A stretch of 33,798 nt of DNA, taken from NCBI GenBank assembly GCA_025351825.1, contig JANXVE010000024.1, forward strand, positions 1-33,798, read 5' to 3'. Origin of the DNA: Chamaesiphon sp. 341R_metabat_111 (GTDB lineage: Bacteria > Cyanobacteriota > Cyanobacteriia > Cyanobacteriales > Chamaesiphonaceae). The position numbers were made by a program, and so were the translations under genes. The notes under the pieces were generated by a model. That model was given only the letters and a program-made list of their open reading frames with translations, did no database searches and had not been told where the DNA came from. Of the stretch, positions 11,677-16,795 are shown one piece after another. How positions within the stretch are numbered: position 1 is the first letter of the stretch; every line of letters begins with the position of its first letter.

Positions 11677-11806
11677 CGTAGATCTTAGGGTACCCACGAG
11701 GGGCACCCCTACAAGTTATCTGTAGGGGTGCCCTGTCTTGTCGTTTTCTTATTCGGGGGGAACCCCCGAATAAAAACGCCGCTTAATGGGTACCCTGATA
11801 TCTACG
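11677..11806. repeat. Dispersed palindromic repeat, copy 3, interrupted by a second palindrome
   Basis: The left arm and loop (CGTAGATCTTAGGGTACCCA onward, loop AGTTATC) match copy 1 base for base. The right arm starts normally (TGTAGGGGTGCCC) but is broken at about 11734. About 53 foreign bases follow before it resumes at ATGGGTACCCT and ends TCTACG. The foreign part holds its own palindrome, TTATTCGGGGG / CCCCCGAATAA (11749-11759 and 11763-11773, 3-base loop), with further pairing of CGTTTT and AAAACG. The whole lies between convergent genes. Confidence 0.85.
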
Positions 11807-11826
11807 CTTAATAATTTACGATCCAA

Positions 11827-12687
11827 TTATTTTCCATGAGACTTTGGAATTACTAATCGCATCCCGCTCTTCTTGCCATCGGCATCCCCCTGATAGCGAG
11901 GGATAATATGAATTGTGGCATGGTTCATGGCTTGTCCTGCCGCTTTGTTGATATTCATCCCGACATTAAATCCATCGGGTTGAAATTCTTTAGTCAAAAT
12001 TTCCTGAACTTTATTCGCCATTAGCCAACAGGCTGATTGTTCTTTTGCAGGTAGTTCAAAATAGTTGCTAACATGTCGTTTAGGTACAATTAGAACATGC
12101 CCTCGACTGAGTGGATAGCCATCAAACATCGCATAGGCAGTTGCTGATTCTGTAAGTAAATTTAGCTTACGGTGAGGATTGCAGAAGATACAGTTATTCG
12201 GTGAATTCCACTGATGATTGTAATGAACATATTCATAGATCTCACAGTAATCATTTATCTGAATAGATTTGAAGGGTAACTTAACAGTGCATTGATATGT
12301 CGGTTTCTTGTGAACGTAATGTTCGCGAAATCCCTCTTTCTTTAAGTCGCGCCTGACTGCATAATATGCTTTACCACCAGGCTTGAGTAGATGAGCGACA
12401 TTCATCAGCACATCAGCCTGAGCCTCTGGCATCAAAACATTCAGGACATAACAGCAAATAATCGAATCAAATTTGCCACCAGGATATATGGGGAAATAAT
12501 GTGGATCGTAACCAGTGATATCCAAACCCTTTTGCTGTAAGAATTTAACATCGTTTCCCAAGCCACAACCAAAATCAAGAATGCTACCTGTGAGCAAGTT
12601 TTGACTTAATAAAAAGTGGACTGGCGATGATAATTTGATGCGATCGATCGCAGTTAAATGACTGAAATTATTTGCTTGTTTTCGCAT
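11827..12687 (-). CDS. Fusion of a class I SAM methyltransferase and a HIT-domain protein
   Basis: A 286-residue two-domain protein. Residues about 10-115 are a short Rossmann methyltransferase: motif I ILDFGCGLGNDVKFL (36-50), an acidic end of beta2 in GYDP (Asp61), FDSIICCYVLNVL and LLKPGGKAYYAVR. Residues 165-286 are a HIT domain: CIFCN (Cys166, Cys169, a likely zinc or structural pair), FDGYPLSRGHVLIVPKRHVS and the histidine triad region NHATIHIIPRYQGD. HIT proteins hydrolyse nucleotide phosphoramidates or dinucleoside polyphosphates. Here the middle triad position is Thr258 between His256 and His260, so hydrolysis may be altered. The substrate of the methyltransferase is unknown. I recall the same architecture annotated as a bifunctional methyltransferase/HIT protein elsewhere. 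Confidence 0.85.
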   Translation of the reverse strand: MRKQANNFSHLTAIDRIKLSSPVHFLLSQNLLTGSILDFGCGLGNDVKFLQQKGLDITGYDPHYFPIYPGGKFDSIICCYVLNVLMPEAQADVLMNVAHLLKPGGKAYYAVRRDLKKEGFREHYVHKKPTYQCTVKLPFKSIQINDYCEIYEYVHYNHQWNSPNNCIFCNPHRKLNLLTESATAYAMFDGYPLSRGHVLIVPKRHVSNYFELPAKEQSACWLMANKVQEILTKEFQPDGFNVGMNINKAAGQAMNHATIHIIPRYQGDADGKKSGMRLVIPKSHGK

Positions 12688-16234: not shown

Positions 16235-16795
16235 ATGAATAAAATCAGCCAAACAAAACAGCTTGTTAGCGAGATCAATCGTTTGCATTGTGATTTTTCA
16301 AAAGATTATTTTGAAACAGGGTGGGTCGAAAAAATCAACCTTTCTAGAACCATCACCCATATACCTGTCCCTCATATCTATAAATATCGTCTAACCTTAC
16401 ACGAGAGCGTGAACGATTACCTGATGACGGCAGACATCGATATAAAATATTTTTACCGAGTCAAAACCCGCGAAAGTATAGACGACAAAATTGAACGCTT
16501 TTCAGAGCGAGAAGATCGATACCCTGTCAATAACTGGCTCAATGATATTTTTGGCGCGCGCATTATTTTAACAGCCGCAGAAATCACAGCCGTGATGGAT
16601 CTACTCGATGACTGGCAAGATGAACTAAGCCTAAAAAACTGGTACTTGCGTAACAAAGAAGATTATAAAGGCTTGCATATTTACTTTAAAAATAAAAGCA
16701 ACTTTTACTTCCCTTGGGAACTGCAAATTTGGGATGCAGAGGATATTCAAAGCAATATTCAAAACCACGAAAAATTTAAACGGAACTTTATCTAA
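16235..16795 (+). CDS. RelA/SpoT-type nucleotide synthetase-like protein (small alarmone synthetase-like)
   Basis: A 186-residue single-domain protein with the synthetase motifs of the RelA/SpoT fold. These are Y-R75-V-K77-T-R-E-S81-x-x-x-K85 (pyrophosphate donor site), D104-I-F-G-A-R109 (metal ligand), D-Y144-K-G-L-H148 (normally YR-x-x-H, guanine stacking) and E162-L-Q164-I (normally E-I-Q-I-R). No hydrolase, TGS or ACT domain is present. Small alarmone synthetases transfer pyrophosphate from ATP to GDP/GTP; toxic versions instead pyrophosphorylate adenine nucleotides or tRNA. The ELQIWD ending of the last motif is atypical. It sits in an AT-rich islet between clpB and the urea transporter. 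A starvation role or a toxin role are both open. Confidence 0.72.
   Translation: MNKISQTKQLVSEINRLHCDFSKDYFETGWVEKINLSRTITHIPVPHIYKYRLTLHESVNDYLMTADIDIKYFYRVKTRESIDDKIERFSEREDRYPVNNWLNDIFGARIILTAAEITAVMDLLDDWQDELSLKNWYLRNKEDYKGLHIYFKNKSNFYFPWELQIWDAEDIQSNIQNHEKFKRNFI

Follow-up and report, generated by a model that had tools for sequence, protein, structure and literature searches.

What can a HIT domain do once the nucleophilic histidine of its triad has been replaced, and what would it bring to a methyltransferase to which it is joined? The question is raised by a gene of a Chamaesiphon-like cyanobacterium located in the window, that is the whole stretch of 33,798 nucleotides that was analysed. 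HIT enzymes act through a covalent histidine-nucleotide intermediate. An earlier note on this DNA had read in one frame a SAM-binding motif and a C-terminal HIT domain with the triad H-A-T-I-H, Thr standing at the nucleophile position. It had proposed either a two-step enzyme acting on a nucleotide-linked or capped substrate or a HIT part limited to ligand binding.

The fusion protein and its predicted fold

The gene occupies positions 11827–12687 of the reverse strand, the strand on which all its parts described below lie, and is a single ORF of 286 aa, uninterrupted from ATG to stop. Residues 6–158 (12214–12672) match the Pfam profile Methyltransf_23 of class I SAM-dependent methyltransferases (47.5 bits, cut-off 27) and include SAM-binding motif I, DFGCGLG (residues 38–44, 12556–12576). 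The HIT domain follows (residues 164–282, 11842–12198), with a PF01230 score of 66.6 bits, above the gathering threshold of 21.5. It contains CIFC (residues 166–169), RGHVLIVPKRH (residues 195–205) and HATIH (residues 256–260, 11908–11922), Thr258 being encoded by ACA. ORF, residue positions and Pfam matches thus confirm the two-domain reading: this is a real protein, with a class I methyltransferase followed by a HIT domain. Against the NCBIfam model NF052622 (Ap4A phosphorylase/ATP adenylyltransferase), it scored 63, below the cut-off of 290.

A first structural model, computed from 38 rows, had a mean pLDDT of 66.9 and a pTM of 0.58, and its HIT part was weak. After addition of viral HIT rows, a second model gave a mean pLDDT of 70.6 and a pTM of 0.52, with blocks of residues 171–270 at pLDDT 69–95 and residues 116–137 below 50. 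When compared with solved structures using VIA-align, the predicted HIT half matched Fhit (6fit) with Z 15.1 and rmsd 2.2 over 104 residues, other HIT entries being tied within 1. The complex of FHIT H96N with a substrate analogue (2fhi) scored Z 13.8 and the HINT1 H112N entries Z 12.1. The HIT half is therefore predicted to adopt the HIT fold; model confidence was modest, and the models are informative for this fold and not for the placement of the two halves.

Distribution of the fusion

Full-length matches to the fusion were obtained in 30 of 292 genomes sampled across the cyanobacterial phylum, the window's own included, and all 30 belong to the window's own order. Within this order, the fusion was present in 15 of 15 genomes of one family. 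In a scan of genome contigs, queried with exact peptides of the window's fusion protein, the best 80 of 144 relatives were all cyanobacterial (some identical to sequences of the 292-genome scan), and the closest relatives among the matches listed were Chamaesiphon proteins, with up to 91 percent identity. No match covered 80 percent of the query in the 139 plasmid records or the 32 phage records with a match, and in viral contigs the matches of the best 80 of 152 relatives all fell within the HIT half or at its edge.

A total of 111 loci with a match were parsed and 109 intact full-length fused ORFs were aligned. Two loci were dropped: L002, a TIGR04096 paralogue from the window's own genome scoring 636.7 bits, and L006, which has one internal stop. 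Addition of 11 rows (nine from the one-family genome scan, two from another search) gave 120 fused rows, 111 of them distinct. A sequencing error joining two separate genes, a case raised in the earlier note, is rejected by these 120 intact rows, each in one frame: the fusion is neither an error nor peculiar to one strain. The dropped orthologue L006 (genome G197), which is counted among the 30 genomes above, carries its in-frame stop in the methyltransferase half; this copy of the gene may be decaying, or the stop may stem from an assembly error.

The nucleophile position of the triad

Profile alignments to the solved HIT proteins 3imi, 1y23, 2eo4 and 3l7x run without gap through the triad, which places Thr258 on the nucleophilic His, as the earlier note had read it. 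The window protein thereby departs from the H-x-H-x-H triad with middle His by which HIT hydrolases and transferases are recognised. The flanking H256 and H260 are present in 120/120 fused rows, and position 258 is other than His in 109/120. The residues found there are Ser (61), Ala (26), His (11), Thr (10), Asn (8), Leu (2), Gly (1) and Gln (1); among the 111 distinct rows, the counts are Ser 58, Ala 23, His 11, Thr 8, Asn 7, Leu 2, Gly 1 and Gln 1. The Ser type includes the proteins of Fischerella thermalis PCC 7521 (L075) and Chlorogloeopsis fritschii PCC 6912 (L065). To the question of whether the architecture carries His or Thr in the middle of its triad, the answer is that both occur and that most members have Ser or Ala. 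A catalytic His at an offset, which the earlier note had envisaged, is rejected: the triad alignment is free of gaps and the His, where present, stands in the same column.

How this residue changed was examined on a quick, unrooted tree of the 120 rows, built leaving out the position-258 column. The starred branches of this tree force at least four His/non-His changes; in a first tree (109 rows, 6 with His), two His changes were sufficient. By parsimony, position 258 underwent 14 changes, a number exceeded by 27 of 119 HIT sites, and positions 256 and 260 none. The rows keeping His are confined to families f9 and f15, and f9 also holds members with Leu, Asn and Gln. Individual clades hold on to one replacement: a starred clade of 25 rows has Ala, the Chamaesiphon clade has Thr and a large clade has Ser. 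With such constancy, the replacement is not free drift, and the residue that took the place of His may have a function of its own.

As a control, we took the non-fused HIT rows found at E 1e-5 by a profile of the fused HIT half, a profile that missed 4 of 27 cyanobacterial HINT loci. The middle His was present in all 112 aligned rows (80 viral, near-copies included, 23 cyanobacterial HINT and 9 other). Because all of these keep it, His is likely to be ancestral at position 258; we infer this polarity from the control rows, as unrooted trees cannot separate loss from regain. The alignments thus suggest that the nucleophile was probably lost repeatedly in the fused HIT domain. Given the 11 rows with His, some members of the family may still be catalytic.

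Could the HIT half still work as a hydrolase or transferase by another route, for example with H260 or a bound metal activating water? The invariance of H256 and H260, together with the 11/120 rows that keep the middle His, would agree with this. We nevertheless regard it as improbable: no single replacement is kept, Ala, Leu and Gly are unable to act as nucleophile, and the H96N change is reported to abolish cleavage by FHIT (PMC4074825).

The HIT pocket

Beside the altered position, H197, H205, N245, Q252, P263, R264 and R277 are present in 120/120 fused rows, and D189 and G251 in 119/120. In a joint alignment of 19 fused rows and 36 viral HIT rows, the latter all keeping the middle His, G239, F240, N241, G243, N245, G251, Q252, H260 and R264 are invariant. 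We take D189, H197, N245, Q252 and H260 to be residues of the nucleotide pocket; D189, N245, Q252 and H260 presumably match ligand contacts of HINT1 and Fhit.

One pocket position has changed. The residue that follows GQ, which we assume to contact the alpha-phosphate, is Thr or Ser in 36/36 viral HIT rows. In the 120 fused rows it is Asn (59), Ser (26), Lys (22), Ala (8), Thr (3) or His (2), so that 91 rows have neither Ser nor Thr and 29 have one of them; all 11 His-keeping rows have Lys. As this residue is altered in 91/120 rows, it is the phosphate side of the pocket that appears changed and not the pocket as a whole. The conservation pattern is that of a pocket probably kept for binding, with its chemistry relaxed.

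A candidate zinc site

The CxxC of the HIT domain (C166 and C169, 12181–12192) may provide zinc ligands together with H205 and H256; the four residues are present in 120/120 fused rows. In the viral HIT proteins, the first triad His is replaced by Trp or Tyr in 34/36 aligned rows, and most rows have Asn or Asp at position 205. When all 80 viral rows are considered, 65 combine Trp or Tyr at the first triad position with the absence of CxxC, the first His is retained in 3, of which 2 have CxxC, and 12 are left unclassified by this pattern. The putative assignment of the four residues to zinc comes from this joint absence, viral rows without the first His being also without CxxC and mostly without H205. 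The coupling between CxxC and first His seems partial and not strict, given that cyanobacterial HINT rows have the first His without CxxC. Two HIT proteins containing zinc according to their titles (3o0m, 3r6f) were among the fold matches. H256 may thus be retained for zinc, and not for catalysis or the pocket.

The fully conserved candidate zinc site would also agree with a HIT half that is only structural, or serves for dimerisation, without any ligand; HIT proteins do dimerise. This explanation appears quite unlikely to us, since D189, H197, N245, Q252 and H260 are as conserved as in the viral rows, beyond what a scaffold would need.

Other triad variants were seen among the relatives. A common viral HIT family (L140–L219, for example L143:3908-4282 and L158:3926-4315) has W/Y-P-H-x-H with the middle His kept, a mirror image of the triad loss in the fused family. 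A stand-alone cyanobacterial HIT protein (L127:3331-3768) has the triad Q-A-H-I-H, with the first His lost and the middle one kept, and lacks CxxC and H205; its gene overlaps the end of another gene, judged murE-like by reading alone.

The methyltransferase half

In the methyltransferase (METHYLTRANSFERASE) half, D38, G40, G42, D46, D61, Y80–N83, R112, R113, D114, G119, R121, Y131 and Q132 are invariant in 120/120 rows. This half thus keeps its glycine-rich SAM motif I. Several of the invariant residues fall in the segment VRRD...GFR.HY...K.TYQ (residues 111–132, 12292–12357), in which Y124 and T130 are present in 119/120 rows and which, from its conservation, is a candidate for substrate recognition.

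Residues 10–85 resemble TIGR04096, a DNA phosphorothioation-associated putative methyltransferase, with a score of 62.8 bits, below the NCBIfam cut-off of 150. The likeness covers this region and a T-[FY]-Q triplet, and the long C-terminal part of TIGR04096 is absent from the fusion protein; the relationship is a distant one. Three larger cyanobacterial proteins from the same searches are true TIGR04096 members (662.7, 781.3 and 636.7 bits), one of which is encoded elsewhere in the window's own genome (L135, 636.7 bits). The triplet is common to the fusion, the TIGR04096 members and stand-alone methyltransferases of Chroococcidiopsis plasmids; it was found in P0002, P0006, P0007, P0008, L132, L133 and L135, that of P0002 being out of register in the alignment with the fused family. 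One Chroococcidiopsis plasmid methyltransferase adjoins a PAPS-reductase-like gene. Sharing of the triplet weakly suggests an origin among nucleic-acid-modifying enzymes.

No dnd gene was named among the 10 window proteins scanned, and the neighbours of 80 loci were clustered without family assignment. PADLOC gave two weak matches, of the HIT half to ThsC and of the methyltransferase half to mad2. The best PHROGs match (phrog_19494, HIT half, 78 bits) is of unknown function, and weaker ones are named methyltransferase and tRNA methyltransferase. Two gene pairs were noted in passing: in a Chroococcidiopsis plasmid (L136:3935-5429), a stand-alone TIGR04096-like methyltransferase (132.5 bits against the cut-off of 150) is followed by a PAPS-reductase-like gene, and in phage phiSASD1 (L114:3117-4444), an AANH/PAPS-reductase-like gene is followed by a HIT gene.

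Genomic context

In the window, clpB is transcribed divergently from the fusion gene, and an aminotransferase gene convergently with it. Clustering of the neighbours of 80 loci showed sharing only within clades: Microcoleus-type genomes have a gene for a 189-aa protein and another that, from reading alone, was named Hsp70-like, and some Chamaesiphon share an aminotransferase gene. A conserved operon is therefore rejected. The listing of conserved neighbours proposed in the earlier note yielded none across the family, clpB included, and since sharing stops at the clade, the neighbours give no functional link or clue to the substrate. Scans of the window for promoters and terminators gave results near chance. 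The same genome encodes a separate HINT-type protein with the triad HLHLH (G000 C119, L241), so that the cell need not rely on the fused domain for HIT chemistry.

These data bear on a tentative explanation, to which we give some credit without favouring it, in which the disabled HIT domain would be an allosteric gate: a receptor for a stress nucleotide (Ap3A, Ap4A or Ap3G) that switches a methyltransferase acting on an unrelated substrate. The invariant segment of the methyltransferase half is what would be expected if this half recognised its substrate alone. FHIT H96N is thought to signal as the uncut substrate complex (PMC4074825), and in Synechococcus PCC 6301, heat is reported to increase Ap3A, Ap3G, Ap4A and Ap4G, and heavy metals to increase Ap4A (PMC7705103, which cites Palfi 1991), so cyanobacteria plausibly make ligands for the HIT pocket. 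On the other hand, the position of clpB beside the fusion gene is not conserved outside the window, and no CIRCE element was detected in the window with up to 3 mismatches.

Further features were recorded around the locus. In the gap between the convergent genes (window 11680–11810), inspection by eye shows a perfect inverted repeat of 13 bp, GGGCACCCCTACA/TGTAGGGGTGCCC, with additional inverted sequence around it; it may be a terminator acting in both directions or a small mobile repeat. On the forward strand, positions 16235–16795 encode a 186-aa protein with a borderline RelA/SpoT match (26.5 bits against 27), possibly a small alarmone synthetase or a relic.

In 4 of the 12 plasmid HIT regions examined (Polaromonas, Aromatoleum, Hymenobacter and Persicobacter, the HNH match of Hymenobacter being below the Pfam cut-off), the HIT gene is directly beside an HNH endonuclease gene. 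HIT and HNH domains are also joined in one cyanobacterial protein. The HIT-HNH loci recorded (L115:5989-7456, L267:3007-4379, L270:1951-3336, L272:1921-3309 and L130:2709-3710) possibly represent a two-gene nuclease module.

Proposed function

The reading that we favour, with moderate confidence, is that the HIT domain is a binding-only nucleotide module serving the methyltransferase, presenting a substrate to it or gating it. It is based on the resemblance of an invariant pocket beside a lost nucleophile to the FHIT H96N and HINT1 H112N mutants. Of the two options of the earlier note, ligand binding is the one favoured by 109/120 non-His rows with invariant pocket residues, and a two-step enzyme that cuts by way of the usual histidine could be envisaged only for the 11 rows in which this residue is still present.

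In such a scheme, the pocket would keep its ability to hold a nucleotide, and the most likely ligand would be a nucleotide-linked end or a purine nucleoside 5'-(poly)phosphate; it may be nucleotide-linked or capped, as the earlier note had proposed. With Ser, Ala, Thr or Asn in place of the nucleophile, the covalent histidine-nucleotide intermediate would no longer be formed. As first choice, the bound, uncut ligand would be part of the methyltransferase substrate; alternatively, it would switch the methyltransferase. The two halves presumably communicate.

A more specific form of the presenting module, which we consider unlikely, is a dinucleoside-polyphosphate methyltransferase, in which the HIT pocket would grip an uncut NpnN, as an alarmone or as a capped RNA 5' end, for methylation by its partner. 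Methylated NpnN caps are described as stabilising, and the methyltransferases responsible were still sought in 2020 according to one report (PMC7044304); a report of 2021 describes the making of these caps as undeciphered (PMC8131947). If true, this reading would supply the missing methylase of NpnN alarmones or RNA caps. More generally, the binding-only module would single out the fusion as a cyanobacterial methyltransferase that may be directed or gated by nucleotides.

Comparison with known systems

Both domains and the effect of nucleophile loss are already known; in a limited search of the open-licence literature, we found no description of a methyltransferase-HIT fusion or of natural nucleophile loss in it. 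With the Fhit and HINT branches (PF01230), the fusion protein shares the predicted fold and the pocket motifs GH, GFN.G.N, GQ and H...H. It differs from them by its methyltransferase partner, by the absence of the nucleophilic His in most rows and by the residue after GQ. Among the matches seen, the closest non-fused HIT halves are stand-alone HIT proteins with an RGG[VI]R tail from plasmids, viruses and cyanobacteria (45 percent identity to the fused HIT half in G036 and L140, 41.5–43.6 percent in Polaromonas and Jeotgalibacillus plasmids). In contrast to the fusion, these keep the middle His and have no methyltransferase joined.

Joining of an enzyme to an Fhit domain has a precedent in NitFhit, the Rosetta-stone fusion of worm and fly; there, the partner is a nitrilase, and the fly protein is reported to have Ap3A hydrolase activity (PMC9913352).

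The nearest parallels for the triad are FHIT H96N and HINT1 H112N, changed at the same position, by engineering in these mutants and naturally in most of the fused family. FHIT H96N is reported to bind substrate tightly without cleavage and to retain tumour-suppressor activity (PMC4074825), and HINT1 H112N to be defective in AMP-NH2 hydrolysis and still to induce apoptosis, HINT1 being an Ap4A target (PMC6789022). If natural HIT domains have lost the nucleophile and kept the pocket, evolution would have produced its own version of the FHIT H96N trap. Such domains would offer a ready-made test of HIT domains as nucleotide receptors in bacteria; the His-keeping and His-lacking members of one family provide a natural series.
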